A stretch of 64,000 bases of DNA, from contig NZ_LMSS01000006.1 in NCBI RefSeq assembly GCF_001429605.1, forward strand, positions 163,180 through 227,179. The letters run 5' to 3'. Each line of letters starts with the position of its first letter. Positions within the stretch are counted from its first letter, which is position 1. The stretch comes from Phycicoccus sp. Soil802 (GTDB taxonomy: Bacteria > Actinomycetota > Actinomycetes > Actinomycetales > Dermatophilaceae). Positions 2,073 through 63,181 of the stretch are shown here, piece by piece. The translations under genes were made by a program, and so were the position numbers. Below the pieces are notes generated by a model. The model did not search any database. It saw nothing but the letters and a program-made list of their open reading frames with translations, and was not told the DNA's origin.

Positions 2073-3623
2073 TCAGCCCTTCAGCACCGACATCGCGGCG
2101 TTGTGGCCCGGGATGCCGCTGACTCCCCCACCACGGCGGGCGCCGGCACCGGCGATGCGGACCGTCGGGTACACCGTCTCCACGCCCCAGCTGCCGACCT
2201 CGGACGCACTCTCGGCCCACGGCCACTGCAGCGACCGGTGGAAGATGTTGCCGCCCGGGAGGCCGAGGTCCGCCTCGAGCTCGACCGGCGTCCGCGCCTC
2301 CAGGCAGTAGGCCCCGTCGGCATCGCGGAGTAGGACGTCCTGGATGGGCTCGGCGAGCACCGAGTTGAGCGACTCGAGCGTCCGGGCGAGCGCGAGGTCC
2401 TTGGCCGCGTCGTGCTCCTCGCTGGTGCCGCGGAACAGCCGGGCCGGAAGGTGCAGCCCGAACAACGTGAGCGTCTGGGCATCCGTCGCCGCCAGCGAAG
2501 GGCCGAGGATCGACCGGTCCGACAGGCTGTGGCAGTAGATCTCGCACGGCGGCAGCTGCGGCACGCGCCCCGCGTCAGCGGCGGCATACGCCTCGTCGAG
2601 CTGCGCCCAGCCCTCGTTGATGTGGAACGTGCCGGCGAACGCGGCGGCGGGGTCGACGGACTCGTCACGCAACCGCGGGAGGCGCGAGAGCAGCATGTTG
2701 ACCTTGAGCTGCGCGCCCTCGGGCGCTTCCTCGGTGGGCACCGGGTCGGCGCCGGCCGCCGCGAGCAACGAGTTGAGGACCGCGGGCGCGCACGCCGCGT
2801 GGATCGTGGTCGCCCGCGCCGAACCGCCGTCGAAGTGCACCTCGCCGTCCGGGTCGACCGCCAGCACGCGGGTGGAGGTGCGGATCTCGGCGCCGGCCGC
2901 GACAGCGGCGCGGGCCAGCCCGTCGGTGACCGCGCCCATGCCGCCGACGGGGACGTCCCAGTCACCCGTGCCGCCACCGATGAGGTGGTAGAGGAAGCAG
3001 ACGTTCTGGCGCAGGTCGGCGCCACCCATCCGCGCGAAGGTGCCGATGAGGGCGTCGGTGGCGACGATGCCGCGCACCGTGTCGTCGGAGAACTCGTCCT
3101 CGAGCACCTGGGCCAGCGGCCGGCGCACCAAGGCGTCCCACAGGTCGTCGTCGCCGACGAGGGAGGCCACCTCCGCCTCGGTGCGCAGCGGCTCGAGCAC
3201 GGTTGGGAAGACCCGCTCGGCCAGCTGCTGGACGCGCCCGTAGAACTGCTGCCACGCGGCATACTCCCGCGGGCTGCCGGTGAGCTGCGCGAAGCCGGCC
3301 GCGGTCGCCTCGGTGTCCCCGTGGTCGACGAGCAGCCCCCGACTGGGCTGCGACGGGACGGGGGTGAACGACGAGAACCGTCGCCGGATCAGCCGGACGT
3401 CGAGATCGAGGTCGCTGATGACCTGCTGCGGCAGCAGTGAGACGAGGTACGAGTAGCGCGACAGCCGCGCGTCCACTCCCGGGAACGCCCGGGCCGACAC
3501 GGCGGCGCCGCCGACGTGGTCGGCCGCCTCCAGCACCAGCACGCGCCTGCCTGCACGGGCGAGGTATGCCGCGGCGGTGAGCCCGTTGTGCCCCGCACCG
3601 ATGACGACGTCGTCGTAGTCCAC
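2073..3623 (-). CDS. FAD-dependent phytoene dehydrogenase-like oxidoreductase
   Basis: 516 aa from ATG at 3623. The N-terminus DDVVIGAGHNGLTAAAYLAR is the GxGxxG dinucleotide-binding loop of the amine-oxidase/phytoene desaturase superfamily. It is followed by the acidic end of the second strand (VLVLEAADHVGG). The C-terminal GIPGHNAAMSVL is the second conserved FAD-contact region. The length fits the CrtI-like COG1233 family. The substrate is unknown: no other carotenoid genes are nearby, and many COG1233 proteins are not carotenoid enzymes (pyridine nucleotide-disulfide oxidoreductase domain proteins such as human PYROXD2 belong here). It is probably a cytoplasmic flavoenzyme transcribed alone. 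Confidence 0.85.
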   Translation of the reverse strand: MDYDDVVIGAGHNGLTAAAYLARAGRRVLVLEAADHVGGAAVSARAFPGVDARLSRYSYLVSLLPQQVISDLDLDVRLIRRRFSSFTPVPSQPSRGLLVDHGDTEATAAGFAQLTGSPREYAAWQQFYGRVQQLAERVFPTVLEPLRTEAEVASLVGDDDLWDALVRRPLAQVLEDEFSDDTVRGIVATDALIGTFARMGGADLRQNVCFLYHLIGGGTGDWDVPVGGMGAVTDGLARAAVAAGAEIRTSTRVLAVDPDGEVHFDGGSARATTIHAACAPAVLNSLLAAAGADPVPTEEAPEGAQLKVNMLLSRLPRLRDESVDPAAAFAGTFHINEGWAQLDEAYAAADAGRVPQLPPCEIYCHSLSDRSILGPSLAATDAQTLTLFGLHLPARLFRGTSEEHDAAKDLALARTLESLNSVLAEPIQDVLLRDADGAYCLEARTPVELEADLGLPGGNIFHRSLQWPWAESASEVGSWGVETVYPTVRIAGAGARRGGGVSGIPGHNAAMSVLKG

Positions 3624-3759
3624 CGGGCGAGCCTACGGGCCGGCGTGGTCGGCCTGCACGCCACCCTGCGTCGGCGGCGGATGCACGCCGCGAGCGCCAT
3701 GACATCTGTCACCAGGGCCCGCGGAGCGGCCCCAGCCGCCGCACGGCGACACGGTGGTC

Positions 3760-3840
3760 GGGAGCGTGAGATCACGAATGGATAACAAACCGGTTGTGGG
3801 GTGATCACATTTCGGACAGGCAGGTCTTCACTGTGAAAGT
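3760..3840 (+). promoter_or_regulatory. AT-richer putative promoter/operator region upstream of the first M6 protease
   Basis: Within the 295-bp gap 3624-3918 this is the only AT-rich stretch (ATGGATAACAAACC and CACATTTCGG). It contains two dyads with GTGA/TCAC arms, GTGAGATCAC at 3766-3775 and GTGATCAC at 3801-3808. They could be binding sites for a regulator of protease expression. No -35/-10 pair is clear enough to assign. Confidence 0.3.
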
Positions 3841-3918
3841 CCGGGCCACCCCGCGTTCTTGAGGAGCGTCGCGACCGGGCACCAGGAGGAGTTCCCACCG
3901 ATAGAAGGCAGGGTCCAC

Positions 3919-9604: not shown

Positions 9605-10504
9605 ATGAGCGAGCAGCCTCCGAGTTCAGCGCCGGTCCCCGGCTCCACCGTCGCAGCCGGGGAGGTCACCGCGCCCTACGGCACCGGGGCCCAGGCCGCG
9701 CCGCAGCGCCGCGTGCGCATCCCCCACCTGCGCGCGATGAAGGAGCGGGGCGAGAAGTGGGCCATGCTCACGGCCTACGACATGTACTCCGCCGAGATCT
9801 TCGACGAGGCCGGGATCCCCGTGCTGCTCGTCGGCGACTCGGCCGGCAACAACGTCTACGGCTTCGAGACCACGGTGCCGGTCACGGTCGACCACCTCGT
9901 GCCGCTGGTCCGCGCGGTCACGTCAGCGGCCAAGCACGCGATGGTCGTGGCCGACTTGCCGTTCGGCTCCTACCAGGCCAGCCCGCAGCAGGCCCTGGCC
10001 ACGGCCACCCGCTTCATGAAGGAGGGCCTGGCCCATGCGGTCAAGCTCGAGGGCGGCAAGCCGATGGTGCCCGAGGTCGAGCTCCTCGTCCGTGCCGGCA
10101 TCCCCGTGATGGGCCACATCGGCTTCACGCCGCAGAGCGAGCACGTCCTCGGCGGCTACCGCGTCCAGGGCCGCGGCGACTCCGGTGACCGGCTCGTCGA
10201 GGACGCCGTCGCGCTGGAGAAGGCCGGCTGCTTCGCCGTCGTCATGGAGATGGTGCCCGCGCCACTGGCCGCGCGGGTCACCGAGGTGCTGTCCATCCCG
10301 ACCATCGGCATCGGGGCCGGACCGGACTGCGACGCCCAGGTGCTCGTGTGGCAGGACATGGCCGGCCTGCGCGGTGGCAAGGCGCCGCGGTTCGTCAAGA
10401 AGTACGCCGACCTTCGCGGCGAGCTCGGCCGAGCGGCCGCAGCGTATGCCGCGGACGTCGCCTCCGGCTCGTTCCCCGCCTCGGAGAACTCCTTCCTCGA
10501 GTGA
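9605..10504 (+). CDS. panB: 3-methyl-2-oxobutanoate hydroxymethyltransferase
   Basis: 299 aa. PanB transfers a hydroxymethyl group from 5,10-methylene-tetrahydrofolate to 2-ketoisovalerate, giving ketopantoate, the first step of pantothenate and CoA synthesis in the cytoplasm. Diagnostic segments are the [17 protein letters not shown] strand-helix, the metal-binding [17 protein letters not shown] loop, [11 protein letters not shown] and [18 protein letters not shown]. An N-terminal extension of about 35 residues (Pro/Ala-rich) precedes the conserved core, as in mycobacterial PanB. Start ATG at 9605. It is a stand-alone gene here: panC/panD are not adjacent. Confidence 0.96.
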
Positions 10505-11748: not shown

Positions 11749-11804
11749 AACCAAGGCGGGTCCCAGCCGACGACGCTGCCGGAGGCCCGGCATACGGTGG
11801 GGCC

Positions 11805-12812
11805 ATGACCCTGCGCATCGGCTACAAGGCCTCCGCCGAACAGTTCGCCCCTCGAGAGCTGCTCGACTTCGGGGTGCTGGCCGAGCAGGTGGGACTCGAC
11901 AGCGTGCTCATCTCCGACCACTTCCAGCCGTGGCGGCACGAAGGGGGTCACGCCCCCTTCTCGCTCGCGTGGCTCGCGGCGCTCGGCGAGCGCACCGACC
12001 GCGTGCAGGTCGGCACCTCGGTCATGACGCCGACGTTCCGGTACAACCCGGCGGTGGTGGCCCAGGCCTTCGGCACCCTCGGCTCGCTGTATCCCGGTCG
12101 CGTGCTGCTCGGCATCGGCACCGGCGAGGCGCTCAACGAGGTCGTCGTCGGGTCGGTCGAGGAGTGGCCGGAGTTCAAGGAGCGCTTCGCGCGGCTGCGC
12201 GAGGCGGTCACGCTGATGCGCAAGCTGTGGACCGAGGAGCGGGTCACCTTCGACGGCGACTACTACCGCGTCGTGGACGCGACCGTCTACGACCGCCCGG
12301 ACCAGCCTGTGCCCGTCTACGTGGCCGCAGGCGGCCCGCTGGTGGCCCGGTATGCCGGCCGGTCCGGTGACGGGTTCATCTGCACCTCGGGCAAGGGTGA
12401 GGAGCTCTACCGCGACAAGCTGCTCCCCGCGGTGGACGAGGGGCTGGCCAAGTCCGGCCGCACCCGCGACGACCTCGACCGGATGATCGAGATCAAGCTC
12501 TCGTGGGACCCGGACCGCGAGCAGGCCGTGACGAACTGCCGCTTCTGGGCGCCGTTGTCGCTCACCGCCGAGCAGAAGCACGGCACGACCGACCCGGTCG
12601 AGCTGGGTCGGCTCGGCGACGAGCTCTCGGACGAGCAGGTCGCCTCCCGGTGGATCGTCTCCGACGACCCGGAGGAAGTGGTCGCCGCCGTGAAGCCTTA
12701 CGTCGACTGGGGTTTCAACCACCTGGTCTTCCACGGGCCGGGCCACGACCAGGCCCGCTTCCTCACCACGTTCGCCGACCGGGTCCTGCCCGGGCTGCGT
12801 GAGCTGGGCTGA
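11805..12812 (+). CDS. fgd: F420-dependent glucose-6-phosphate dehydrogenase
   Basis: 335 aa, the family's usual length. Oxidises glucose-6-phosphate to 6-phosphogluconolactone with coenzyme F420, supplying F420H2 to reductases. It follows the M. tuberculosis Fgd1 sequence closely: [15 protein letters not shown] (here [16 protein letters not shown]), [18 protein letters not shown] with the catalytic Asp-His, [29 protein letters not shown] with the catalytic Glu, and [14 protein letters not shown]. This is a luciferase-like TIM barrel, cytoplasmic. Its presence implies that the organism makes F420. Start ATG at 11805. Confidence 0.97.
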
Positions 12813-13728: not shown

Positions 13729-13779
13729 GGGGGTGCCCTCCAACTCGACGGATCTGCGTACGTCCCTAGACTCCACCGT

Positions 13780-14643
13780 ATGCCGTTGACGTACGCAAGC
13801 GTGGCGCCGGGCGTGGTCTCTCCACGCCGGCCGGTGCCCGCCTCGATCGCGCGGCCCGAGTACGTCGACCGGCCGGCGCCGGCACGGGACACCGGCTCGG
13901 AGGTCAAGGACCCGGAGACCATCGAGCGGATGCGGGTTGCGGGGCGGATCGCCGCCCAGGCCATGGCGGCGGCCGCAGCGGTGATCGCCCCCGGGGTCAC
14001 GACGGACGAGGTCGACCGCGTCGGCCACGAGTTCCTCCTCGACCACGGGGCGTACCCCTCGACCTTGGGTTACAAGGGCTTCCCGAAGTCGCTGTGCACC
14101 TCCGTGAACGAGGTCGTCTGCCACGGGATCCCCGACGACCGCCGGCTCGAGGACGGCGACATCGTCAACATCGACATCACCGCCTTCATCGGCGGCGTGC
14201 ACGGCGACACCGACGCCACCTACCTCTGCGGTGATGTCGACGAGGAGTCGAGGCTCCTCGTCGACCGCACCCGCGAGGCGATGATGCGCGGGATCAAGGC
14301 CGCCATCCCCGGTCGTGAGATCAACGTGATCGGGCGGGTGATCCAGAGCTACGCCCGGCGCTTCGGCTACGGCGTCGTCCGCGACTTCACCGGCCACGGG
14401 ATCGGTCGCACGTTCCACAGCGGGCTGGTCATCCCCCACTACGACGCGGCGCCCTCCTACAGCACCGTGATCGAGCCTGGTATGACCTTCACCATCGAAC
14501 CGATGCTCAACCTCGGCACCCCTGAGTGGGAGATGTGGGCCGACGGGTGGACAGTCGTGACGGCAGACCGCCGTCGTTCGGCACAGTTCGAGCACACCAT
14601 CCTCATCACCGAGAACGGCAACGAGATCCTCACGCTGGCGTAG
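13780..14643 (+). CDS. map: Methionine aminopeptidase, type I
   Basis: 287 aa from ATG at 13780. The frame is open far upstream through the methyltransferase gene, so this start is set by family length. Removes the initiator Met co-translationally. Metal ligands are visible in order: the Asp of [19 protein letters not shown] (two Asp), the His of [10 protein letters not shown], the Glu of TFTIEPMLN and the Glu of SAQFEHT. The about 40-residue N-terminal extension before the pita-bread fold, with [12 protein letters not shown], is the Pro-rich linker of the actinobacterial type Ic/MapB form. The start codon itself lies in a copy of the recurrent word GTATGCCG. Confidence 0.96.
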
Positions 14644-15484: not shown

Positions 15485-17056
15485 TCAGCGCATCGCGACG
15501 AGGTCCTGCAGGAGCAGCGCCTGGCGACGACGGAACAGGTCGGCGCCGAGCCGGGTCCCGACCAGCAGCGCCACCCCGCCCAACACGGGGCCGAGCACGA
15601 GCGCGGCCCAGGCCGCCCAGCCCACGCCAAGGTATGCCGCGACCGCGAGCCCCAGCGCCGGGAGCGACAGCGTCCACACGGCGACGCCGCAGACGGCCTG
15701 CACGCCGAGGGTCACCCCCGCCGATCCCGGACGGCTGGTGAACGGGTTCTCGCCGGGTGCCGGCACGGCATACTGCTTCACCGCGCTGGTGACACAGGCG
15801 ACCGCGAAACCGTTGAGCGCCAACGCGACTGCGGTGCCGAACGTCGCCGGCAGCATGCGCCACGGCGCACCGAACAGGGGTCCCAGCAGGCAGTACACAG
15901 GGATGCAGAACACGGCCATCAGCCCCGACGGAAAGAGCCGGCCGAGCCGGTCGCTCACGCCGTCGACCCCGGACGCGACGTGCAACCAGAACGCCGTGGA
16001 GTCGTAGCCGACGTCGTTGTGCTGCCCCCAGCCGATGAGGTACGCGGACGCCAGCGGCATCCCGAGGAGGGCCAGCTGGGACCCGGAGCCGAGGCCCGGG
16101 ATGAGCAGCCCGGCCGGCAGCAGGATGGTCATGATGGCGGGGACGTTGAAGCGGGGGTCACGGACCCAGTAGGTGCCCGCCCGCGCTGCGATCGCACCCA
16201 TCGGCGTCGCCGGGAGCCGTCCGAAGAGGCCCAGACCCGCCGAGACCTTGCCGCCGTCCGCGGACGCCGACCGTGGGTTGCGCAGGACGGAGACGAGCAG
16301 CCGTTCCCAGACCACGAGGAGGACCAGGACCAGGGCCGCCGCCAGGGCGAGGTGCGTGAGTCCCGTGCTCCACTCCCCCAGCGTGACGTCACCGGCCGCT
16401 GCCCAGGCCCAGCCCAGCGGTGTCCAGGCGAGCACCAGGGCCGTGCTGTCGAGGGTGGCGCGGTCGATGCCTCCGTCGGAGAGCCCGCCGATGATCGGGC
16501 CGGCGACGATGAACAGCAGCAGGCCCCCGACCCCGGCCACATCGCGCCCGCGCCGCGTGGCGAGGACGGCCGCGGCCGCGGCGGTGACGATCCGGCTGAG
16601 GAGGACACAGGTCACCAGCCCGAGCAACCCTCCGACCAGGGCGGCCAGGGTGGCCGCGACCGAGCGCGAACCAGCCACCACGGTCCCCAGCACCAGCAGG
16701 ATGGTGGCGACGCCAGGCAGCCCGACCAGGGCGGTCAGGACCAGCCCGACGGCCAGGGTCCGCTCGCGGACGGCGAAGGTCGCGAACCGCGTGGGGTCGA
16801 GGGTCGGGTCGACGCCGAACAGGATGATCGGCAGCAGCGACCAGCCGGCCACGAGCACTGACCCCGTCACCACCACCACGGACCCGGGGAGCTCGAGGTC
16901 GCCCTGGGCGCGCAAGGCCACCAGCCCGGCGAGGGCGAGGACGACGAACCCGCCGCCGTAGATGACCCCGATCACCATGCCGACGACGGCGGCGACGCTG
17001 CGCCGGAGGCCGTTGCGGAGCAGGTGCAGCTTCAGTCGGACGAGGTGCGCAACCAC
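15485..17056 (-). CDS. ABC exporter permease, large polytopic membrane protein
   Basis: 523 aa, with about 12 hydrophobic segments spread over the whole length. Examples are VVGMVIGVIYGGGFVVLALAG near residue 25 and AAVLATRRGR followed by GGLLLFIVAGPIIGG near residues 160-190. A loop with YWVRDPRFNVPAIMTILLP lies in the middle. The start overlaps the 3' end of the ATPase gene by 25 bp, which is typical translational coupling of the two halves of an ABC-2-like exporter. The substrate cannot be deduced. Confidence 0.85.
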   Translation of the reverse strand: MVAHLVRLKLHLLRNGLRRSVAAVVGMVIGVIYGGGFVVLALAGLVALRAQGDLELPGSVVVVTGSVLVAGWSLLPIILFGVDPTLDPTRFATFAVRERTLAVGLVLTALVGLPGVATILLVLGTVVAGSRSVAATLAALVGGLLGLVTCVLLSRIVTAAAAAVLATRRGRDVAGVGGLLLFIVAGPIIGGLSDGGIDRATLDSTALVLAWTPLGWAWAAAGDVTLGEWSTGLTHLALAAALVLVLLVVWERLLVSVLRNPRSASADGGKVSAGLGLFGRLPATPMGAIAARAGTYWVRDPRFNVPAIMTILLPAGLLIPGLGSGSQLALLGMPLASAYLIGWGQHNDVGYDSTAFWLHVASGVDGVSDRLGRLFPSGLMAVFCIPVYCLLGPLFGAPWRMLPATFGTAVALALNGFAVACVTSAVKQYAVPAPGENPFTSRPGSAGVTLGVQAVCGVAVWTLSLPALGLAVAAYLGVGWAAWAALVLGPVLGGVALLVGTRLGADLFRRRQALLLQDLVAMR

Positions 17057-17856
17057 GCCAGCCCCTCCACGTTGGTGCTGCCACCCACCAGGTCGAGGAA
17101 GCGGTCCTCGAGGCTCGCGCCGGCTCGCACGTCGTCGAGGGTGCCCGAGGCGCGCACCACGCCGGCGGCGATGATCGCCACGTCGGTGCAGATCCGCTCG
17201 ACCAGGTCCATCACGTGGCTCGAGAGGACCACCGTGCCACCACTGGCCGCGAAGTCCTCGAGGATCCCCCGGATGGTCCGGGCGGACACCGGGTCGACGG
17301 CCTCGAAGGGCTCGTCGAGGACCAGCAGGCGTGGGGCGTGGATCAGGGCGCAGGCCAGGGTGATCTTCTTGGTCATGCCCGCCGAGTAGTCGATGACGAG
17401 CTTGTCCTGGGCGTCGGTCAGCCCCAGTGCCGCCAAGAGCTCGGCGGTGCGCTCCGCGACGAGCTGACGGTCCATCCCACGCAACAGGCCGGCATACGTC
17501 ACCAGCTGGTGTCCGGTGAGGCGGTCGAACAGGCGCAGGCCGTCGGGGAGGATGCCGATCTGGGACTTGGCGGCGACCGGGTCGTCCCAGACGTCGACGC
17601 CGAGCACGTGGGCGGTGCCGGAGTCCGGGCGCAGCAGTCCCGTGGCCATCGACAGCGTCGTGGTCTTGCCCGCACCGTTGGGGCCGACGAGGCCGTAGAA
17701 CGAGCCCCTGGGCACGTCGAGGTCGAGGTGGTCGACCGCGGTGGTCTGGCCGAAGCGCTTGGTCAGTCCACGCAGGCCCAGGGCGATCTCGGGCTGGCGC
17801 GTGGTCACCGGTGCTGGCCCTGCGGCGGGCTCGGGAGTGGTCGGCGCGTCCTGCAT
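17032..17856 (-). CDS. ABC transporter ATP-binding protein
   Basis: 274 aa. Walker A GPNGAGKTT (residues 58-66), a somewhat degenerate signature YSAGM at 157-161, and Walker B LLVLDEP at 177-183 followed by the H-loop (SSHVMD). The CcmA-like COG1131 subgroup drives exporters such as drug, lipid or Na+ efflux systems. It partners the permease that starts within its 3' end. An N-terminal tail of about 22 residues is Pro/Ala-rich and unstructured. Start ATG at 17856. Confidence 0.93.
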   Translation of the reverse strand: MQDAPTTPEPAAGPAPVTTRQPEIALGLRGLTKRFGQTTAVDHLDLDVPRGSFYGLVGPNGAGKTTTLSMATGLLRPDSGTAHVLGVDVWDDPVAAKSQIGILPDGLRLFDRLTGHQLVTYAGLLRGMDRQLVAERTAELLAALGLTDAQDKLVIDYSAGMTKKITLACALIHAPRLLVLDEPFEAVDPVSARTIRGILEDFAASGGTVVLSSHVMDLVERICTDVAIIAAGVVRASGTLDDVRAGASLEDRFLDLVGGSTNVEGLAWLRTSSD

Positions 17857-18808: not shown

Positions 18809-19024
18809 GTCCTCACCGTAGGCACAAACCTCCCGGCCAGCACCCGGTCTCCGTCCGAACTGCCGATGCCGGCGGTCTCCACGACATTGTGACTGCACCC
18901 CCGCCGTACTGGGTCGGGGCGGGCTGCAAGCCGCAGTCACGTCGCGCTTGGCCCGCGACGAATCCGAGCATTCGCGGCAAATCTGGTGAAAGGTGACAGA
19001 CTGCCGGCCTAGGGGGTGGGTTCG

Positions 19025-19813: not shown

Positions 19814-19858
19814 CATTCCTCAACGGGTCGTGAGTCACCACGGGACGCTCGCTCGGCG

Positions 19859-22331: not shown

Positions 22332-22365
22332 AGGTATGCCGCGTGGCCGGCCACGCGGCATACCT
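22332..22365. terminator. 34-bp perfect palindrome made of two GTATGCCGCG words
   Basis: AGGTATGCCGCGTGGCC followed directly by its reverse complement. It lies between the DUF559 remnant (-) and rnpB (-). It may terminate upstream leftward transcripts and overlaps the rnpB promoter region. The arms carry the octamer discussed in the findings. Confidence 0.6.
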
Positions 22366-24286: not shown

Positions 24287-25036
24287 GTGCTCATCCTGCT
24301 GCCGCCGTCGGAGTCGAAGACCGGGCGGACCCGCGGCCGGCCGGTGGCCCACGAGCACCTCTCCTTCCCCGAGCTCGCGCCGACCCGCCAGGCCGTCGCC
24401 GAGGCAGTCGCGAAGGTCAGTGCGCACCCCGATGCAGCGGCCACCCTGGGCGTCAGTGCCAACCTCACCGCCGAGATCGCCCGCAACCTGGTGCTCCACA
24501 CCGCACCGGCCCTGCCCGCGTCCCGTGTCTACTCAGGGGTGCTGTACGACGCGCTGGCCTACGCCGACCTCGACCCCGCCGCGAAGCGTCGTGCCAACCG
24601 GTGGGTCGTCGTCGTCTCGGCCCTCTACGGCGCCGTCCGCCCCACCGACGCGATCGCCCCGTACCGCCTGTCGATGGCCGTGAACCTCCCGGGCGTGGGG
24701 CCGCTCGCCAGCGCCTGGAAGCCCGAGCTCACCGCCGTCCTCCCCGAGGTCGCCGGCCGTGGCGTCGTGGTCGACTGCCGCTCCAGCACGTATGCCGCGG
24801 CGTGGACGCCCACGGGCGACCTCGCCGACCGCTGGGTGCAGGTCCGGGTCCCGGGCGCCACCCACATGGCCAAGCACACCAGGGGTCTGGTCGCGCGCGA
24901 GCTGTGCCAGGTGGGACGCGATGTCAGGCGGGTGCGCGACCTGGCCACGGTGCTCGAGCAGTCGTTCGACGTCGAGCTCACCCCGCCGGGCAAGGCCGGC
25001 CGACCCTGGATCCTCGACGCCGCAGCTCGCAGGTGA
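24287..25036 (+). CDS. yaaA: Peroxide stress protein YaaA (DUF328)
   Basis: 249 aa from GTG at 24287. The start LILLPPSESKT is the invariant opening of the YaaA/DUF328 family, and VVSALYGAVRPTDAIAPYRL and GATHMAKHTRGLVARELC are its conserved central and C-terminal blocks. In E. coli YaaA limits free iron and Fenton damage during peroxide stress and binds DNA; its role here is inferred. The stop overlaps the start of the next gene (GTGA at 25033-25036), so the two are likely co-translated. Confidence 0.9.
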   Translation: MLILLPPSESKTGRTRGRPVAHEHLSFPELAPTRQAVAEAVAKVSAHPDAAATLGVSANLTAEIARNLVLHTAPALPASRVYSGVLYDALAYADLDPAAKRRANRWVVVVSALYGAVRPTDAIAPYRLSMAVNLPGVGPLASAWKPELTAVLPEVAGRGVVVDCRSSTYAAAWTPTGDLADRWVQVRVPGATHMAKHTRGLVARELCQVGRDVRRVRDLATVLEQSFDVELTPPGKAGRPWILDAAARR

Positions 25037-26130
25037 ACGGCGCCGAGCTGGGTGACGTCCTGCTGCGGGTGCTCCCCGTCCTCATCTTCTTCGTGGCGAT
25101 CACGGTGGTGGCCGAGATCGCCGACGCCGCAGGGGTGTTCGACGTCGCGGGCCACTGGGCGTCCCGGGCCGGGCGGCATCGCACGCCCGTGCTGTGGCTG
25201 CTGTTCGTCCTCGTCGCCGTGGCGTGCACGGTCGTCCTCAGCCTCGACACGACGGCAGTCCTGCTCACCCCGGTCGGCCTGGCCATCGCCGCCCAGCTCG
25301 GGATCTCCCCCGTGCCGTTCGCCCTGACGACCTTGTGGATCGCCAACACGGCCAGCCTGTTGCTGCCAGTCTCGAACCTCACCAATCTCCTTGCCCTGCA
25401 TCACTTCGAGCGTTTGGGAGTCGGGCATACCGGCTACATCCGACTGGCCGTCCTGCCGGCAGTGGCCGCGGTGGTCGGGACGGTGCTGGTCCTCTACGTC
25501 GTGCACCGGCGCGAGCTCACGGGTCGCTACCTGCCGGACGCCCCGCCCGACCCGCACGACCAGGTCCTGCTGCGGGTCTCGGCGGCGGTGTGCGTGGCCG
25601 TCGGTCCGCTCTTCGCGGTGGGTCTGCCGCCTGCCTGGGTGTCGGGTGTGGCCGCCATCGTCCTGGTCGTCGCGGCGTGGTCGCGCGACCGCGACCTCGT
25701 GCGGCACCTGAAGGTGCCATGGAAGATGGCGCTGGCGGTGGCCGCCCTCTTCGTCGTGATCGACGCTGCCCTCCAGCTCGGCCTCGAGCCCGCCCTCGCC
25801 GCGCTGGCCGGAGAAGGCACGTCGGCCGCAGACCTGGCGCAGGTGGCCGGTGCGGGCGCGGTGGCCGCGAACGCCGTGAACAACCTGCCCGCCTACATCG
25901 CCCTCGAGTCGGTGACCTCGGACGCCCCGCAACGCCTGATGGCGCTGCTCATCGGGGTCAACGTCGCGCCGCTGGTGACACCGTGGGCCTCGCTGGCGAC
26001 GCTGCTGTGGGCGCAGCGGTGCCGGGCCCGGGGCCTCCAGATCTCGATGCGCTCGCTCGCCGTGCAAGGGCTCCTGTGCAGCGTCGTGGCGGGCGGCCTG
26101 TCGCTCGGCGCCCTGGTCGTCACCTCCTGA
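25033..26130 (+). CDS. ArsB/NhaD-type ion transporter, 365 aa
   Basis: Starts at the GTG overlapping the yaaA stop. About ten membrane segments. Conserved stretches are VVLSLDTTAVLLTPVGLAIA and TLWIANTASLLLPVSNLTN in the first half and AGAGAVAANAVNNLPAYIAL in the second half. They are the paired re-entrant substrate motifs of the ion transporter (IT) superfamily, ArsB/CitM/NhaD branch. The ASLLLPVSNLTNLL motif most resembles arsenite permease ArsB. No arsR or arsC lies nearby, so arsenite export is only one possibility, Na+/H+ or dicarboxylate transport being others. The protein is short for the family (ArsB is about 430). Confidence 0.82.
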   Translation: MNGAELGDVLLRVLPVLIFFVAITVVAEIADAAGVFDVAGHWASRAGRHRTPVLWLLFVLVAVACTVVLSLDTTAVLLTPVGLAIAAQLGISPVPFALTTLWIANTASLLLPVSNLTNLLALHHFERLGVGHTGYIRLAVLPAVAAVVGTVLVLYVVHRRELTGRYLPDAPPDPHDQVLLRVSAAVCVAVGPLFAVGLPPAWVSGVAAIVLVVAAWSRDRDLVRHLKVPWKMALAVAALFVVIDAALQLGLEPALAALAGEGTSAADLAQVAGAGAVAANAVNNLPAYIALESVTSDAPQRLMALLIGVNVAPLVTPWASLATLLWAQRCRARGLQISMRSLAVQGLLCSVVAGGLSLGALVVTS

Positions 26131-37551: not shown

Positions 37552-37613
37552 CCCTCCAACTTATCCGGCGACCCCGCACACCCGGCAGGCACCGCGCGGC
37601 ATACATTGCAGGC

Positions 37614-40371: not shown

Positions 40372-41616
40372 TCAGTGGAGGTGGGTCTGGTGCGGATCGG
40401 TCTGGGGTGAGGCGGCCTGGGTGGCGAACGGCGCCAGCGCCTCGCGCAGCGACGACGTGGACGCCCCGTGGCTCCCGGGCCTGGTGACCACGACCAGACC
40501 GTCGGGTGTTCGTGACGTCACGGCCGCCGCGTGGGTCGAGAGAGGCGTGAGCGTCCGCACGCCGAGGGAGTCGAGGACGGCGCGGGCGGTCTCTCCGCCG
40601 GTCGCCAGCAGGACCGTGGCCCGCGCCGTCGCGGGCGCGGCCGCCGCGGCCAGGGCCGCGCTGAGGCCTCGAGCGGACCGCGGGTCCACGGTGACGGCCT
40701 GGTCGAGGCTGAGCACGAGCCCCGTGGTGGTCAGCGCCTCGGCGACCAGTCCGACCGCCTCCTCGGGCGACTCGAGGAGCCGGTGCGGGTCCAGCGTCAC
40801 GACCGTGAGCCCCAGGTCGGCCAGCGCGGCCACCTGCTCCGTGATCCCCGGCGCCGCGGAACCGACGACGGCGACGACCACGTGGTCAGCCGTGGTGTCG
40901 GCCACGGGCTCGGGGGCCGGGTCCGGCTCGAGCTGCCGGGCGTCTGCGGCGACGAGCGCGGCCGAGCCCACGAGCAGGGCGTTCCGCAGCACCGTGGCGC
41001 CAGCCACGACGGCGTCGAGGTCGGCGTCGGTCTCCGCGTCACAGACGGCTGATGCGCCGGCGGCTTCGACCGCGGCCAGCGCGGCGCGGAGACGCGCGCG
41101 GTCGCGCACGACCTCCAACGGGACCAGGACGTGGTCGAGACCGGGCAGCGCGTCGGCGACCGTCGCGGGAGCCGGGCCCTCCTCCGCATCCCAGAGGTTC
41201 GTGGCGGTCAGCGGGGAGCCGTCGACCAGCGGGACGCCGCCCACGACGGTGCGCTGCGCCGTCGGCAGGGCGGTGGCCACGACGACCGTGGCGTCGAGCG
41301 CCGACGCCAGGCCTCGTACCTCGGCAGCCAGGTTGCCGCGCAGGAGTGAGTCGACCTTCTTGACCACGCGAGTGGTCGGCGACGCGCCCACGAGCTGCGC
41401 GGCATACCGGGCCACGAGGGCGCCCGCCACGGCGGGGGCGGCGTGCCGGGTGTCCGAGTCGAGGACGACGACCCGCGGGCTCTCGTCGCCACGGTCCGCG
41501 GCGTCGAAGTCGTCCCGCGCAAGCTGCACCGTGATGCGCGTTGTGCGCAGGAGGAAGGTAGCTGCGGACTCGGCAGCTCCGGAGAGATCGTCGGCGACGA
41601 CCAGCCGTTCGAGCAC
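40372..41616 (-). CDS. Four-carbon acid sugar kinase (DUF1537)
   Basis: 414 aa from the GTG at 41616, with AAGGAGG five bases before it. The open frame begins 27 bp further up without a site. RLVVADDLSGAAE opens the N-terminal substrate domain (ADDxTGA motif), VVKKVDSLLRGNLAAEVRGL is the family KxDSTLRG signature, and the C-terminal ATP domain shows LLATGGETARAVLDSLGV and VTRPGSHGAS. It phosphorylates a C4 acid sugar such as D-threonate, L-threonate or D-erythronate. It pairs with the adjacent PdxA2. Transcribed away from the importer operon, with 230 bp between the starts. Confidence 0.93.
   Translation of the reverse strand: MLERLVVADDLSGAAESAATFLLRTTRITVQLARDDFDAADRGDESPRVVVLDSDTRHAAPAVAGALVARYAAQLVGASPTTRVVKKVDSLLRGNLAAEVRGLASALDATVVVATALPTAQRTVVGGVPLVDGSPLTATNLWDAEEGPAPATVADALPGLDHVLVPLEVVRDRARLRAALAAVEAAGASAVCDAETDADLDAVVAGATVLRNALLVGSAALVAADARQLEPDPAPEPVADTTADHVVVAVVGSAAPGITEQVAALADLGLTVVTLDPHRLLESPEEAVGLVAEALTTTGLVLSLDQAVTVDPRSARGLSAALAAAAAPATARATVLLATGGETARAVLDSLGVRTLTPLSTHAAAVTSRTPDGLVVVTRPGSHGASTSSLREALAPFATQAASPQTDPHQTHLH
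41535..41549. promoter_or_regulatory. Candidate operator half of a pair (inside the kinase 5' end)
   Basis: TGCGCGTTGTGCGCA, which is the exact reverse complement of the 15 bases at 41757-41771. It lies about 70 bp inside the kinase coding sequence. The paired position on both sides of the divergent promoters is what an operator pair for a looping repressor would show. Confidence 0.5.
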
Positions 41617-47126: not shown

Positions 47127-48100
47127 GCCCGACCGAGCTCGCTGGGTTGGACACCCCGCTCCCCCAGCTGGTGCTGGGCACGATGACGTTCGGTGACACC
47201 GCCGACGCCGACACCTCACGCGCCATGGTCGACGCCGCCCTCGAGGCAGGCATCACCTGGCTGGACACTGCCAACGGGTATGCCGCGACCCGCACCGAGG
47301 AGATCCTCGGCGAGGTCCTCGCAGGGCGTCGGGACCAGTTCTCCGTGGCCACCAAGGCCGGCATCTACGCGGGCGACGCCGGTGGCGAACCCTTGCTGTC
47401 CCGCAAGGGAGTCCGCACGTCGCTCGAGGCAAGCCTGCGTCGGCTGCGCACCGACCACGTCGACCTCTTCTACCTGCACCAGCCCGACCGGTCGGTGTCC
47501 GTGGACGAGACCGCCGACGCCCTCGCCGATGTCGTCGCCTCGGGGATGGCGAAGGCCGTCGGGGTGTCCAACTTCGCCGCTTGGCAGATCGCCGACCTCA
47601 CCGGGGCGTGCGAGCGGGCAGGTGCGCCGCGCCCGGTCGTGGCCCAACAGCTCTACAACCTCGTCGCCCGACGGGTCGAGGACGAGTACGCCGAGTTCGC
47701 GACGACGCACGGGCTGGCCACGATCGTCTACAACCCGCTGGGTGGCGGCCTCCTCACCGGCCGACACAGCTTCGACGCCGCGCCCGGTGAAGGTCGCTTC
47801 GGCTCGTCGTCGCTGTCGACCATGTACCGCGACCGCTACTGGAACCGCAGTCTGTTCGAGGCGGTCGACGCCTTGGCCGCCATCGCGAGCGACGCCGGGA
47901 TCGGCCTCCCGGAGCTGTCACTGCGGTGGCTCCTCTCCCGACCGGTGGTCTCCGCCGTCCTGCTCGGCGGGTCGAAGCCCGACCAGCTCCGGGCCAACAT
48001 CGCCGCGGCCGACCGTGGACCCTTGTCCGCCGACACCGTCGCGGCGTGCGACGAGGTCGGCGCCACCCTGGCCGGCCCCATGCCGGCCTACAACCGATAG
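47123..48100 (+). CDS. Aldo/keto reductase in the acid-sugar operon
   Basis: 325 aa, ATGA overlap with the ATPase gene. TIM-barrel AKR with the catalytic tetrad D48 (LDTANGY), Y53, K78 (ATKAG) and H119 (FYLHQPD), and the NADP-binding VSAVLLGGSKPDQL near the C-terminus. Typical substrates are sugar aldehydes or small keto compounds. Placed between the importer and the aldolase, it probably interconverts a sugar aldehyde or keto-acid intermediate of the imported compound. Confidence 0.92.
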   Translation: MSPTELAGLDTPLPQLVLGTMTFGDTADADTSRAMVDAALEAGITWLDTANGYAATRTEEILGEVLAGRRDQFSVATKAGIYAGDAGGEPLLSRKGVRTSLEASLRRLRTDHVDLFYLHQPDRSVSVDETADALADVVASGMAKAVGVSNFAAWQIADLTGACERAGAPRPVVAQQLYNLVARRVEDEYAEFATTHGLATIVYNPLGGGLLTGRHSFDAAPGEGRFGSSSLSTMYRDRYWNRSLFEAVDALAAIASDAGIGLPELSLRWLLSRPVVSAVLLGGSKPDQLRANIAAADRGPLSADTVAACDEVGATLAGPMPAYNR

Positions 48101-48902: not shown

Positions 48903-50125
48903 CCATGGCCACCGCGCTCGGCACCGACGGCGTCCTCCGCTCGCGCGAGGGGGACGACGGGGTCGAGGAGGCCTTCCTGCCCGCACCGACGGTCCAGTCC
49001 CACGCGGCCAACCTCGCCGTGCTCGGTGACGGAAGCCTCGGCTGCGTCTGGTTCGGCGGCACGCAGGAGGGCGTGGCCGACATCGACGTGTGGTTCTCGC
49101 GACTCGCGCCCGGGGCCGACCAGTGGACCGAACCCATCCGGTTGTCCGACGACCCCACCCGCTCCGAGCAGAACCCAGTGCTCTTTCCCGCCCCCGACGG
49201 CCGCCTCTGGCTGTTCCACACCGCACAGCACGCCGGCGACCAGGACACGTCCTTCGTCCGGGCGCGGACCTCGCCGGACCACGGCGCGACGTGGGGTCCG
49301 GCGCGGACCCTGCTCGAGGCCGAGCGCGGCGGGGTCTTTGTCCGCCAGCCCCCCGTCGTGCTTCCCTCGGGGACCTGGGTGCTCCCCACCTTCACGTGCG
49401 TGCGGGTGCCCGGCGAGAAGTGGGTCGGCGACAGCGACACCAGCAGCGTGTGGGTCTCGACCGACGAGGGCGGCTCGTGGACCGAGCGCGAGGTGCCGGA
49501 CTCGACGGGGTGCGTCCACATGAGCATCGTGCCGAGGGCCGATGGGGGGTATGCCGCGTACTACCGGAGCCGGTGGGCGGACCACGTCTACCGCAGCGTC
49601 TCCGACGACGGACTCGACTGGACCGCACCGCAGCCCACCGAGCTGCCCAACAACAACTCGTCGATCCAGGCGGCGCCGTTGACAGGTCACCGAACGGCGT
49701 TGGTGCTCAACGAGAGCAGCCGCCTCGACGCCGTCGCGCGCCGGGTCTCGCTGTACGACGAGATCGACGACGACGGCATCAGCGATGCGGCCCCAGCCGA
49801 GCCCGAGACCGTGTCGCAGGAGGACCTGGTCGCGGTGCAGGGCGCCTTCTGGGGAGCACCCCGCGCGCCCCTCACCCTGGCCGTGTCGGGTGACGACGGA
49901 GCGACCTGGCCGCTGCGCTGGGTGCTCGAGGACGGCGACGGCTACTGCCTGAGCAACAACTCCCGCGACGGCGTGAACCGTGAGCTGAGCTACCCGTCCG
50001 TCTGCCAGGACGCCTCGGGCACGGTGCACGTGGCATTCACGTACCACCGCCGCGCCATCCGGCACCTCCGCATCCGGGCGGCCGCCCTCGACGCCCGAGC
50101 CGCTGCAGCACCGCCTTCCGCATGA
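48899..50125 (+). CDS. Sialidase-like (BNR/Asp-box) beta-propeller, cytoplasmic
   Basis: 408 aa. The GTG at 48899 overlaps the aldolase stop (GTGA); ATG at 48905 is an alternative. Four Asp-box motifs, SPDHGATW (125-132), STDEGGSW (187-194), SDDGLDW near 235 and SGDDGATW (330-337), mark a six-bladed propeller of the BNR_2/exo-alpha-sialidase type. The order and spacing agree. No signal peptide is present, so unlike secreted sialidases it should work on imported material. The canonical sialidase Arg triad cannot be assigned with confidence. It could hydrolyse, or eliminate across, a glycosidic bond to an acid sugar. Confidence 0.85.
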   Translation: MTMATALGTDGVLRSREGDDGVEEAFLPAPTVQSHAANLAVLGDGSLGCVWFGGTQEGVADIDVWFSRLAPGADQWTEPIRLSDDPTRSEQNPVLFPAPDGRLWLFHTAQHAGDQDTSFVRARTSPDHGATWGPARTLLEAERGGVFVRQPPVVLPSGTWVLPTFTCVRVPGEKWVGDSDTSSVWVSTDEGGSWTEREVPDSTGCVHMSIVPRADGGYAAYYRSRWADHVYRSVSDDGLDWTAPQPTELPNNNSSIQAAPLTGHRTALVLNESSRLDAVARRVSLYDEIDDDGISDAAPAEPETVSQEDLVAVQGAFWGAPRAPLTLAVSGDDGATWPLRWVLEDGDGYCLSNNSRDGVNRELSYPSVCQDASGTVHVAFTYHRRAIRHLRIRAAALDARAAAAPPSA

Positions 50126-53807: not shown

Positions 53808-53845
53808 AGGTATGCCGCCCGCTCGCCTGAGCGGGCGGCATACCT
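53808..53845 (+). terminator. 16-bp perfect hairpin after aceE, made of GTATGCCG words
   Basis: AGGTATGCCGCCCGCT at 53808-53823 pairs exactly with 53830-53845 across a six-base loop, 40 bp after the stop. Each arm contains the octamer GTATGCCG, one per strand. Confidence 0.85.
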
Positions 53846-56115: not shown

Positions 56116-56154
56116 GTCGGCGGCATACAAATAGACTCCCCGTATGCCGCCGAC
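56116..56154. promoter_or_regulatory. 13-bp perfect inverted repeat covering the fasR start codon
   Basis: GTCGGCGGCATAC at 56116-56128 and GTATGCCGCCGAC at 56142-56154, with a 13-base spacer. The right arm contains the fasR ATG (56144). The spacer ATAGACTCC follows CATACAAAT, which could serve as the -10. As DNA it is a candidate autoregulatory operator; as RNA it would hide the start codon. Confidence 0.65.
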
Positions 56155-58453: not shown

Positions 58454-58454
58454 C

Positions 58455-59815: not shown

Positions 59816-59947
59816 GCCCAGCAGTTCCCCTGCGCGGGTGGCGGCCACGCGGCACACCACTGCCGGACAGTGACCCCGTCGCACCAGCCGCCACCCCGCA
59901 CCGGCCACCAGCCGCACCGCACGACCGACGAAGGAGCAGACCCAGCC

Positions 59948-61192
59948 ATGACCGCCGAACGACGCGTCGTCGTCACAGGCCTCGGAGCCACCACCCCTGT
60001 GGGCGGCACCGTCCCCGAGACGTGGGACGCCATCCTGGCCGGACGGTCGGGCGCCAAGATGATGGACTTCGACTGGGTGGAGAAGTACGAGCTCCCGGTC
60101 AAGTTCGCCGCCACGATCCACACCCAGCCGACCGACGTGCTGACCAAGGTGGAGGTGCGCCGGCTCGACCCGAGCGCCCAGTACGCCCTGATCGCCGCGC
60201 GTGAGGCCTGGGCGGACGCCGGCGCCCCCGAGGTCGAGCCCGAGCGCCTCGCTGCTTGCATCGGCACCGGCATCGGTGGCGTCTGGACCCTGCTCGACCA
60301 GTGGGACAACCTGCGCGAGAAGGGCCCGCGCCGGGTCTTCCCGCTCGCCGTCCCCATGCTCATGCCCAACGCCTCCTCCGCCGCCGTCTCCCTGGAGATC
60401 GGCGCCCGGGCCGGGGCCCACACCCCCGTCTCCGCCTGCGCCTCCGGGCTCGAGGCGATGGGCTACGCCTACGAGATGATCCGCAACGGCCGGGCCGACA
60501 TCGCGGTCGCGGGTGGCACGGAGGGCGCGGTGCACGCGCTGCCGATTGCCGGCTTCGCCGCCATGCAGGCGCTCTCGACCCGCAACGACGACCCCGAGCG
60601 CGCGTCGCGCCCCTACGACACCGGCCGCGACGGGTTCGTCCTCGGTGAGGGCGCCGCCGTGATCGTGCTCGAGGAGTACGAAGCGGCCAAGGCCCGTGGC
60701 GCCACCATCTACGCCGAGATCGGTGGCGTGGGCATGTCCTCGGACTCCCACCACATCGCCGCGCCGGAGCCTGAGGGCGCGGGCGCGTCCCGGGCGATGG
60801 TCGAGGCCGTCGAGCGGGCCGGCCTGACGCCCAAGGACATCGTCCACGTGAACGCGCACGCGACCTCGACCCCGGTGGGCGACGTGGCGGAGTCGAACGC
60901 CATCCGGCGCGCCTTCGGCGACGACACCGACGGTATGCCGGTCAGCGCCACGAAGTCGATGACCGGTCACCTCCTCGGTGCGGCCGGGGCGCTCGAGGGC
61001 GTCCTCACGATCCTGGCGCTGCACCACCGGATCGCGCCCGCGACGATCAACCTCGACGACTTCGACCCCGCGATCAAGCTCGACGTGGTGCACGGTGAGG
61101 CCCGCAAGCTCCCCGCAGGCGACATCGCGGCGCTGAACAACTCGTTCGGTTTCGGTGGTCACAACGTCGCGGTGGTCTTCACCTCGGTCTGA
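59948..61192 (+). CDS. fabF: 3-oxoacyl-ACP synthase II
   Basis: 414 aa from ATG at 59948, with GAAGGAG upstream. Elongating condensing enzyme with the triad C164 (VSACASGLEA), H304 (VNAHATSTPVGD) and H341 (SMTGHLLGAAG). NSFGFGGHNVAVVF closes the fold. KasA-like in position and length. Last gene of the operon, followed by a strong hairpin. Confidence 0.97.
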   Translation: MTAERRVVVTGLGATTPVGGTVPETWDAILAGRSGAKMMDFDWVEKYELPVKFAATIHTQPTDVLTKVEVRRLDPSAQYALIAAREAWADAGAPEVEPERLAACIGTGIGGVWTLLDQWDNLREKGPRRVFPLAVPMLMPNASSAAVSLEIGARAGAHTPVSACASGLEAMGYAYEMIRNGRADIAVAGGTEGAVHALPIAGFAAMQALSTRNDDPERASRPYDTGRDGFVLGEGAAVIVLEEYEAAKARGATIYAEIGGVGMSSDSHHIAAPEPEGAGASRAMVEAVERAGLTPKDIVHVNAHATSTPVGDVAESNAIRRAFGDDTDGMPVSATKSMTGHLLGAAGALEGVLTILALHHRIAPATINLDDFDPAIKLDVVHGEARKLPAGDIAALNNSFGFGGHNVAVVFTSV

Positions 61193-61858: not shown

Positions 61859-61926
61859 CTGCCGGAACACCGTGGCTGCGTCGGCAGGCGCGGGTCGCCT
61901 GGAGCCGCAGGTCAGGGCGCTGGATT

Positions 61927-62571
61927 TCAGCCGGGCGGCGGCGGGATGGTGATGCTGACCAGCGGGTCGCCGGTGCTCGTGGTCGACCGGGTCGGCGAGC
62001 CCGTGCCCGGGTGGGTCTTGGTGGGCTTGGACTTCGTGGCCGTGGAGGACGTCGACGCATCGGTCGACGTGGAGCTCGAGGGACCGGTGCTGGTGGCCGA
62101 GGAGTGCGTCGACGCCGCCGTCGAGACGGGCGCGGGCGTCCGCTGAGAGCTGGATCGGGAGGCGGTGGTCGCCGTCCGCGTGCCATCCGTGGAGCTGCTC
62201 GCCGAGTCGACCTGCTGGCCAGTCAGCGACGTGCTGGTGGCGGCCGGGTCGTCCGCACCGTCGGCCGGCGCCTTGTCGGGGAGCACGAACGCGAACGACA
62301 CCATCGCGGTCAGCCCGCCGATCCACAGGAGCACCAAGCTGGGCAAGGGCTTCCACGAGGCCTCCCGCCCCACGGCCTCCCGGTGGGCGAGGAACTCACG
62401 GGCGTAGGCGACCAGGGTCACGACGGCAGCGGCCGAGAACAGCCAGAGCACCCACGTAGCGATGGTGGCGCCACGGGGCAGGTCGGCGGCCAGAATCAGC
62501 CAGGCGTACCAGAGCAGCGTCCCCACACAGGCTGCGGCCAGCACCCCCAGGATGAGCTTGGGGCGGGTCAC
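61927..62571 (-). CDS. Membrane protein with long Ser/Thr-rich tail
   Basis: 214 aa, ATG at 62571 with GGAGG nearby. Three hydrophobic segments in the first 100 residues (LILGVLAAACVGTLLWYAWL, TWVLWLFSAAAVVTLVAY, LPSLVLLWIGGLTAMVSF) are followed by about 110 residues of low-complexity Ser/Thr/Pro sequence. The tail is probably extracellular, wall-spanning and possibly glycosylated. No family recognised. Confidence 0.6.
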   Translation of the reverse strand: MTRPKLILGVLAAACVGTLLWYAWLILAADLPRGATIATWVLWLFSAAAVVTLVAYAREFLAHREAVGREASWKPLPSLVLLWIGGLTAMVSFAFVLPDKAPADGADDPAATSTSLTGQQVDSASSSTDGTRTATTASRSSSQRTPAPVSTAASTHSSATSTGPSSSTSTDASTSSTATKSKPTKTHPGTGSPTRSTTSTGDPLVSITIPPPPG

Positions 62572-62665
62572 ACGTTCCTCCAGAGTCGATCGGACAGCCG
62601 CAAAGGCTACCGAAGACCCCGCCGAACCCCCGAAACGTGCAGGTCACGCGGCTGCCTGAAAGCGC

Positions 62666-63181
62666 TCAGCCCACCTTGTGGAGCCAGCGCACGGGGGCTC
62701 CGTCACCGGCATACCGGAACGGCTCGAGCTCGGCGTCCCAGTCGGTGCCGAGCAGCTCCTCGACCATCTCGACCATCGCCTCAGGCGACCCCTGCGACAG
62801 CCGCAGCACGTCACGGAGCCGGTCCTCGTTGATCACGGCGTCACCGGCCGCCGAGGTCCAGGTGTGGTGGATCCCCAGGGCGGGGGTGTGCGACCAGCGC
62901 GACCCGTCGGCGCCGGCGCTCGGCTCCTCGGTCACCTCGTAGCGCAGGTTGTCCCACCCGCGCAGGGTGGAGGCGAGCTTGGCGCCGGTGCCCTGCACTC
63001 CTGCCCACGGGAACTCCGCGCGGACGAGTGCGGCACCGGCCGGCTGTGGGGTCCAGTCGATGGCCAACCGGCCGTCGAGGGCGGACTCGAGGGCCCAGGT
63101 GATGTGGGGGCACAGCGCTTTGGGGGTGGAGTGAATGAAAACCACCCCGCGGGTCATGACACGCGGCATCGCGACAGACAT
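62666..63181 (-). CDS. DUF3145 domain protein
   Basis: 171 aa, ATG at 63181 with AAGGAGG six bases upstream. TRGVVFIHSTPKALCPHITW, FPWAGVQGTGAKLASTLRGW, RFEVTEEP-like (LRYEVTEEP) and the C-terminal LEPFRYAGDGAPVRWLHKVG define DUF3145, an actinobacteria-specific family that commonly lies close to fabF. Function unknown. The 223 bp between this start and the tRNA contain no other gene. Confidence 0.92.
   Translation of the reverse strand: MSVAMPRVMTRGVVFIHSTPKALCPHITWALESALDGRLAIDWTPQPAGAALVRAEFPWAGVQGTGAKLASTLRGWDNLRYEVTEEPSAGADGSRWSHTPALGIHHTWTSAAGDAVINEDRLRDVLRLSQGSPEAMVEMVEELLGTDWDAELEPFRYAGDGAPVRWLHKVG

Follow-up and report, generated by a model that had tools for sequence, protein, structure and literature searches.

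A strand-balanced, iterated octamer in Phycicoccus sp. Soil802 and its family, a probable DNA uptake sequence

The window analysed here, a stretch of 64,000 nucleotides from Phycicoccus sp. Soil802 (contig NZ_LMSS01000006.1, positions 163,180 to 227,179), raises the question of why a single octamer, GTATGCCG, should recur throughout it on both strands. An earlier sequence-only reading had counted 30 occurrences of GTATGCC, 15 per strand, 29 of them extending to the octamer, and had likened the word to the uptake sequences of Neisseria and Pasteurellaceae; our recount gave the same figures (15 octamers on the forward strand and 14 on the reverse). Judged from sequence comparisons, GTATGCCG is probably a DNA uptake sequence. 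Abundance with strand balance, paired copies forming hairpins (in the genome of the window), conserved sites, lineage dialects and encoded machinery, which are among the marks by which such sequences are recognised, were found. The earlier proposal has come out of the follow-up strengthened: it withstood the tests of frequency and of repeat origin, and site conservation, dialects and family-wide spread have been added to it.

Abundance, strand balance and placement of the octamer

When all 8-mers of the window were ranked by z-score, GTATGCCG came first, with 29 copies seen and 1.19 expected under an order-3 Markov model. The whole genome (4.29 Mb) contains 2,241 copies (0.52 per kb), and the strand balance seen in the window extends to all of them, with 1,143 on the forward and 1,098 on the reverse strand; the reversed word, used as a control in the same genome, occurs 51 times (25 and 26 per strand). 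In a sample of 464 kb, made up of the window and 20 further stretches of its genome, 247 copies were found, far above the 2.2 to 5.7 that Markov models of orders 1 to 4 predict once the word is masked; the excess is about 43- to 112-fold. Nineteen of the 20 further stretches hold the word, and each of those 19 holds it on both strands. The word is non-palindromic (its complement is CGGCATAC), and its one-mismatch variants show no depletion (286 seen, about 201 expected). The bases flanking it show weak preferences only (G before; C and then G after), which partly track codon phase, and no common repeat was detected in the flanks of the copies in the sampled stretches.

Gene calls in the 464 kb sample come from a simple script based on a codon model rather than from a standard annotator, and some genes and RNA genes were missed. 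With these calls, 163 of the 247 copies lie in genes; the 84 that lie elsewhere exceed the 38 predicted from the length of the DNA outside genes. The commonest frame within genes, xxG-TAT-GCC-G, accounts for 94 copies, two antisense frames for 39 and 16, and the others for 14 together. It had been claimed that TAT is otherwise rare in this DNA and that the word is no by-product of codon use, and the counts agree: called genes contain 185 TAT codons against 2,267 TAC, and 94 of the 185 fall within GTATGCCG. This concentration indicates that the DNA word accounts for these codons, and not codon choice for the word. The copies occur in several frames, on either strand and also between genes, and their flanks are not shared, which likewise speaks against an origin from one protein motif or one repeat family.

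The copies are spaced more evenly than random placement would give. When each pair is treated as one site and the word-free stretch L115 is excluded (genomes are coded G and genome stretches L throughout), the coefficient of variation of the spacing is 0.741, compared with 0.971 ± 0.062 in simulations, none of 2000 of which gave a value as low. Defining a close pair as two copies less than 60 bp apart, we found 21 such pairs, of which 18, comprising 36 of the 247 copies, are arranged head-to-head. Of these 18, only two touch a called gene, while 11 begin no more than 50 bp after a called stop codon, as the check for paired copies at terminators had looked for, and three lie between divergent called genes. 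Four head-to-head pairs were folded and gave energies of -28.9 to -44.8 kcal/mol (example stem GGTATGCCGCGTGG); one of the 18, with a spacing of 58 (L107, 6218-6283), does not appear by eye to form a hairpin. Hairpins like the one that follows aceE in the window recur elsewhere in all 11 genomes of the genus that were searched.

Site conservation, family spread and dialects

Conservation of the sites was checked against four congeners, which have 0.81-0.86 nucleotide identity to the window and are not independent of each other. The aligned sites are intact in 24/29, 18/24, 19/25 and 20/26 cases (75-83%), compared with background rates of 0.27-0.36 for all 8-mers and 0.30-0.42 for 8-mers of the same GC content; words one base off GTATGCCG are intact in 15/44, 10/35, 9/32 and 7/33 cases. 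Identity is 0.93-0.96 inside the word, 0.79-0.85 within 300 bp of it and 0.82-0.86 elsewhere, so that the flanks are slightly less conserved than the rest in all four comparisons. Passages of PMC2397512 describe the same pattern for the Neisseria DNA uptake sequence (DUS), whose sites are much more conserved than their slightly fast-evolving flanks.

Two other congeners differ. G010, at about 0.81 identity, keeps 12 of 32 sites, compared with 20 of 26 in G001 and 7 of 8 in G002 at like identity, and G009 (0.79 identity) keeps 4 of 10. Eight of the 20 sites lost in G010 read xTACGCCG (GTACGCCG or CTACGCCG), the rare TAT having reverted to TAC, the favoured codon. Both genomes are losing the word.

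The nearest named relatives of the AceE protein of the window are those of Flexivirga meconopsidis (82%) and an Austwickia (78%), placed by NCBI in Dermacoccaceae and Dermatophilaceae, order Micrococcales, which are united in GTDB as one family, Dermatophilaceae. In the sequence read from Flexivirga meconopsidis, 53 kb contain 29 copies of GTATGCCG. Using a threshold of 200 copies per Mb, GTATGCCG is abundant in 79 of 149 genomes of this family, with a maximum of 1,356 per Mb; among 290 genomes of the class outside the family (of 296), none exceeded about 51 per Mb by eye. Further words were found by scanning stretches of genomes without GTATGCCG and were then counted in the 149 genomes with a threshold of 300 per Mb. 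Three words, GTACGCCG, GGATGCCG and GAAGGGGG, reach it in 10, 9 and 11 genomes, respectively, each in a strand-balanced manner and at densities comparable to those of GTATGCCG. At least one of the four words is over threshold in 107 of the 149 genomes, and two words only in G059 and G093. The remaining 42 have no word over threshold, a few, such as G009 and G010, being intermediate; in seven of the 42 (G136, G012, G024, G026, G030, G056 and G060; 20-100 kb each), no other word stood out.

A tree of 28 genomes, built by a quick method and leaving four forks open, has GTACGCCG as the dominant word at three or more separate positions (a group of G040, G055, G063 and G039, which also holds the word-less G026; G084; and G120), GGATGCCG in two and GAAGGGGG in one. 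The sixth base is loose in some dialects, with GTACGNCG in Austwickia and G084 and GTATG(C/A/G)CG in Flexivirga. GAAGGGGG, often as CGAAGGGGG, has a density of at least 440 per Mb in every one of the 11 genomes that genera g43 and g44 contribute to the 149, for example in stretches L187-L189 (G052) and L141-L146 (G137). We considered whether GTACGCCG is merely decayed GTATGCCG; this is partly so in G010 and not in G055, where its 3,903 copies are strand-balanced and, in a sampled 93 kb, fall in all six frames. Close pairs arranged as head-to-head hairpins recur for GGATGCCG in G042 (3 of 4) and for GAAGGGGG in G137 (5 of 6), and the single close pair in G116 is also head-to-head.

Uptake machinery, proposed mechanism and rival explanations

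The sequence-only reading had suggested a search for com genes, and the genome of the window has both comEA (TIGR00426, over the cut-off) and comEC (PF03772), in a row with leuS, degV and a plsY-like gene (the last three labelled by eye). The two lie in one locus in all 28 genomes whose com locus was read. ComEC was detected in 145 of the 149 family genomes, alike in word-bearing and word-less ones, the four misses being drafts of 58, 68, 81 and 95% completeness. TadE was also found in 145 of 149, and all 28 genomes searched for a TadA-like ATPase had one. Loss of ComEC or of the whole Tad system as the cause of word-less genomes is not supported by these counts. A type IV pilus as the reader of the word was rejected, as PilM (PF11104) occurs in 5 of the 149 genomes and in none of the nine of the window's genus that were searched; a receptor of the ComP type is therefore not expected.

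Tad loci were read in eleven genomes (20 stretches, the second locus of G041 being outside the set). Locus I (tadA-B-C) is present in 10 of the 11, eight of these having a small pilin gene together with TadE-, TadF- and TadG-like genes, and in some genomes it adjoins prfB and ftsEX (named by eye). Locus II, beside an ssd-like gene, is also present in 10 of the 11. The word-less G056 has a single TadA, in a locus of the ssd type, and may lack locus I. For G042 and G084, the stretch read beyond tadC showed none of the locus I pilin genes except a piece of tadG where L248 ends, and in G137 the tadF matches come in two pieces in different frames. Minor pilins of these loci are candidates for the receptor. 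According to passages of PMC6370729, the actinobacterium Micrococcus luteus requires Tad-type pili for transformation and has comEA and comEC homologues. The genomes studied here resemble it in having comEA, comEC and a set of tad genes whose pilins are TadE/TadF-like, and the N-termini of the locus I TadE and TadF resemble those of M. luteus by eye; no uptake sequence is described for M. luteus in those passages.

The mechanism that we favour would begin with a protein on the cell's exterior that binds DNA carrying the word; among the minor pilins of the Tad (Flp) pilus we see its likeliest source. The retracting pilus would draw this DNA to ComEA and ComEC, and one strand would be passed inside for recombination. 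If only tagged DNA is efficiently taken up, recombination among kin would spread the copies and keep them, so that the word would build up in shared genes, strand-balanced and evenly spaced, and newly arrived DNA would be without it. A drift in receptor preference would lead to rewriting of the genome, producing the dialects GTATGCCG, GTACGCCG (or GTACGNCG) and GGATGCCG, probably also the unrelated GAAGGGGG, and paired copies would serve in addition as terminator-like hairpins. Transformability of these bacteria, stimulation of uptake by the word and its action through Tad pili are points that we infer. The fuller proposal, a self-recognition code read by Tad minor pilins and independent of Neisseriaceae and Pasteurellaceae, whose at least three related dialects arose by fast receptor change several times over, with one branch using an unrelated word, is put forward tentatively, as a possibility for which our confidence is limited.

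Several observations weigh against an uptake sequence of this kind. Word-less genomes keep comEC, and four of them (G136, G026, G030 and G056) also comEA; G136 and G026 even keep the pilin genes of Tad locus I, so the presence of the machinery alone does not predict the word. Among the Tad loci of the eleven genomes, a small sample, no protein was tied to a dialect and no receptor was found. GAAGGGGG has no sequence in common with the other words. The hairpin arrangement is not universal among the genomes sampled: no close pair occurs among 63 copies of GTACGCCG in G055 or 18 in G040, and G084 has one close pair, on the same strand (--), among 39 copies of GTACGCCG and one head-to-head pair of GTACGGCG. 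Head-to-head pairs make up 1 of 4 for GTACGCCG (G063, G039 and G120 together), 1 of 5 for GGATGCCG in G032 and 1 of 4 for GAAGGGGG in G052; for GTATGCCG itself they make up 1 of 2 in G103 and 2 of 3 in G002. Conservation, spacing and balance would also fit a chromosome-binding protein, and a test confined to the window, asking whether sites are lacking in unshared DNA, was not significant (p 0.067).

Word-free DNA bears on this last point. L115 (1-20000, at the start of contig 1 of G000) has no GTATGCCG in 20 kb, at a GC content of 0.652, and encodes BrxL of the BREX system, a methyltransferase-like protein, a Mu/Tn7-like transposase, an AbiV-like protein and GmrSD; it has the appearance of a defence island carried by a transposon or adjoining one. 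The window itself has a segment adjoining rnpB, 18827-21904, that does not align to the four congeners and is probably the integrated element which had been cited as free of the word. It indeed contains no copy, but its emptiness alone is not significant because only about 1.6 copies would be expected there. Concentration of the word in the core genome, a published trait in Neisseria, is matched here only weakly.

The main rival to an uptake sequence, and one that we consider unlikely, holds that the word is the site of a chromosomal protein, be it a nucleoid organiser, a condensin loader or an occlusion factor, whose binding preference would have drifted from genus to genus and for which selection maintains evenly spaced sites. 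Even spacing, conserved positions, occurrence on both strands and presence across the family in dialects would all be as expected. There would be no obvious reason, however, for so many close pairs to be head-to-head hairpins (18 of 21, with 11 of the 18 past a stop codon), it would be odd for a maintenance site to be below threshold, in all four spellings, in 42 of 149 genomes (a few of them intermediate, and seven of them scanned for other words), and the slightly faster evolution of the flanks is not obviously explained by a protein that binds in the cytoplasm. Strand counts speak against a strand-oriented word that guides recombination or chromosome translocation, like Chi or the FtsK-orienting polar sequences (KOPS). 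The density and the species-specific spelling are Chi-like, but strand bias is absent from the window (15/14) and from the genome (1,143/1,098), and each of the 19 word-holding stretches has copies on both strands; this local mixing, in an assembly of nine contigs, excludes an orientation of the KOPS type, and we regard such a role as highly improbable.

A DNA methylation or mismatch-repair system that modifies or converts near-matches would agree with a word that is sequence-specific and genome-wide, and yet the one-mismatch words are not depleted but slightly over-represented (286 against about 201), which makes a system converting them unlikely; as the word is also non-palindromic, we give this explanation little credence. 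We give as little to the view that the window's genome carries a relic of a once-working uptake sequence. The two congeners that are losing the word lend it some colour, but the genome of the window and four relatives conserve their sites far above background, which indicates that the word is maintained there. It is scarcely credible, finally, that terminator hairpins or a family of dispersed repeats gave rise to the word as a side effect: paired copies do form strong hairpins, with near-identical ones in each of the 11 genomes of the genus, but only 36 of 247 copies belong to head-to-head close pairs, 163 lie in called genes, and the flanks are unshared.

Relation to known systems and individual copies

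The uptake signal sequences (USS) of Pasteurellaceae occur as hairpin pairs, as GTATGCCG does, and have AT-rich flanking tracts; no such tracts were seen around GTATGCCG, and word, phylum and pilus type are different. HIP1 of cyanobacteria is a palindromic, highly iterated octamer found across the genomes of that group and discussed in connection with methylation and mismatch repair; GTATGCCG shares the iteration and not the palindrome. The likeness to Pasteurellaceae USS lies in an abundant short word with dialects within a family (PMC12616744). That to Neisseriaceae DUS, as far as passages of PMC3630211 and PMC2397512 describe it, extends to thousands of copies, branch dialects one or a few bases apart (the dialect structure being described in PMC3630211), terminator pairs, one genome with two dialects and some with none, and absence from recently acquired genes; the spacing of Neisseria DUS is tied to gene conversion tract length (PMC2397512). 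The differences are another phylum, an unrelated word, no type IV pilus and, in GAAGGGGG, a word unrelated to the other dialects, and uptake is here what we infer. Density is also lower here, at 0.52 per kb in the window's genome and no more than 1.36 per kb in any family genome, than the up to about 2.5 per kb given for Kingella oralis DUS in a passage of PMC3630211. The function is probably DUS-like, with another word, another phylum and probably another pilus.

A passage of PMC12616744 states that selection of DNA by short enriched motifs is known in no families other than Neisseriaceae and Pasteurellaceae. Among the matches listed in a search of titles and abstract beginnings in the open-access literature, with preprints outside its scope, no uptake sequences were reported in Actinobacteria, and among the matches listed for the octamer itself none was on uptake by its title. 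If an uptake function is true, a third family, actinobacterial and with another pilus, would indicate that such codes arise repeatedly, and would offer an independent case for the joint change of receptor and word and for the question of molecular drive versus selection. Dialect switches, mixed genomes (G059, G093), decaying members (G010, G009) and word-less relatives would constitute a natural experiment. A large actinobacterial group would also be naturally transformable, and the right word on DNA could ease its genetics.

The individual copies in the window are listed in Table 1. All three inverted pairs that had been claimed are present. At 22334-22363 and at 53810-53843 the copies stand head-to-head and form hairpins; in the third pair, at 56121-56149, they face the other way (-+), and a gene starts there. 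The name aceE for the gene before the second hairpin was borne out by a match to TIGR00759, and rnpB lies at 21914-22311 (-). The gene at the third pair, earlier called fasR, is a PucR-type regulator by its match to PF13556, and the exact name goes beyond that match.

Table 1. Occurrences of the word in the window, with location relative to called open reading frames (ORFs) and, from alignment to up to four congeners, the number of relatives that keep each copy
Feature	Position	Strand	Location	Kept
GTATGCCG copy	2582..2589	-	inside ORF 2073-3623 (-)	4/4
GTATGCCG copy	3257..3264	-	inside ORF 2073-3623 (-)	2/4
GTATGCCG copy	3564..3571	+	inside ORF 2073-3623 (-)	4/4
GTATGCCG copy	10444..10451	+	inside ORF 9605-10504 (+)	2/4
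GTATGCCG copy	11788..11795	-	just before ORF 11805-12812	3/4
GTATGCCG copy	12350..12357	+	inside ORF 11805-12812 (+)	4/4
GTATGCCG copy	13778..13785	+	outside called ORFs	3/4
GTATGCCG copy	15632..15639	+	inside ORF 15485-17056 (-)	1/4
GTATGCCG copy	15766..15773	-	inside ORF 15485-17056 (-)	2/4
GTATGCCG copy	17490..17497	-	inside ORF 17032-17856 (-)	3/4
Head-to-head GTATGCCG pair, perfect hairpin (-34.7 kcal/mol, z -5.5)	22334..22363	22334-22341 +, 22356-22363 -	22 bp beyond rnpB 5' end	+ copy 2/3, - copy 2/2 aligned
GTATGCCG copy	24790..24797	+	inside ORF 24287-25036 (+)	4/4
Sole GTATGCC without following G (GTATGCCC), from word count	25424..25430	-		
GTATGCCG copy	29037..29044	-	inside ORF 28666-29124 (-)	4/4
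GTATGCCG copy	29465..29472	+	inside ORF 29216-30388 (-)	3/4
GTATGCCG copy	31521..31528	-	inside ORF 31129-31989 (-)	3/4
GTATGCCG copy	31767..31774	+	inside ORF 31129-31989 (-)	3/4
GTATGCCG copy	35830..35837	-	inside ORF 35579-37882 (-)	4/4
GTATGCCG copy	35947..35954	+	inside ORF 35579-37882 (-)	3/4
GTATGCCG copy	37597..37604	-	overlap of ORFs 35579-37882 (-) and 37464-38450 (+)	3/4
GTATGCCG copy	41400..41407	-	inside ORF 40372-41643 (-)	0/1 (aligned in 1 relative only)
GTATGCCG copy	47278..47285	+	inside ORF 47123-48100 (+)	1/1 aligned
GTATGCCG copy	49549..49556	+	inside ORF 48656-50125 (+)	1/1 aligned
Head-to-head GTATGCCG pair, perfect hairpin, terminator-like (-41.5 kcal/mol, z -9.4)	53810..53843	53810-53817 +, 53836-53843 -	42 bp after aceE stop codon	+ copy 4/4, - copy 3/4
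Tail-to-tail GTATGCCG pair, 13-bp arms	56121..56149	56121-56128 -, 56142-56149 +	around start of PucR-type regulator gene 56144-57352	both copies 3/4
GTATGCCG copy	60933..60940	+	inside ORF 59870-61192 (+)	3/4
GTATGCCG copy	62707..62714	-	inside ORF 62666-63181 (-)	4/4

Two minor observations concern other genomes. In L248 (G042), the region between tadC and the tadG fragment (about 1900-6100) has a lower GC content (60%), a frame that resembles DUF262 by eye and an extended array of 'VPDWQRQLFQKPL' repeats. In L184-L186 (G040) and L187-L189 (G052), runs of at least eight C or G are strongly over-represented; those of G040 are all on one strand (0 and 24) and possibly belong to one long run.

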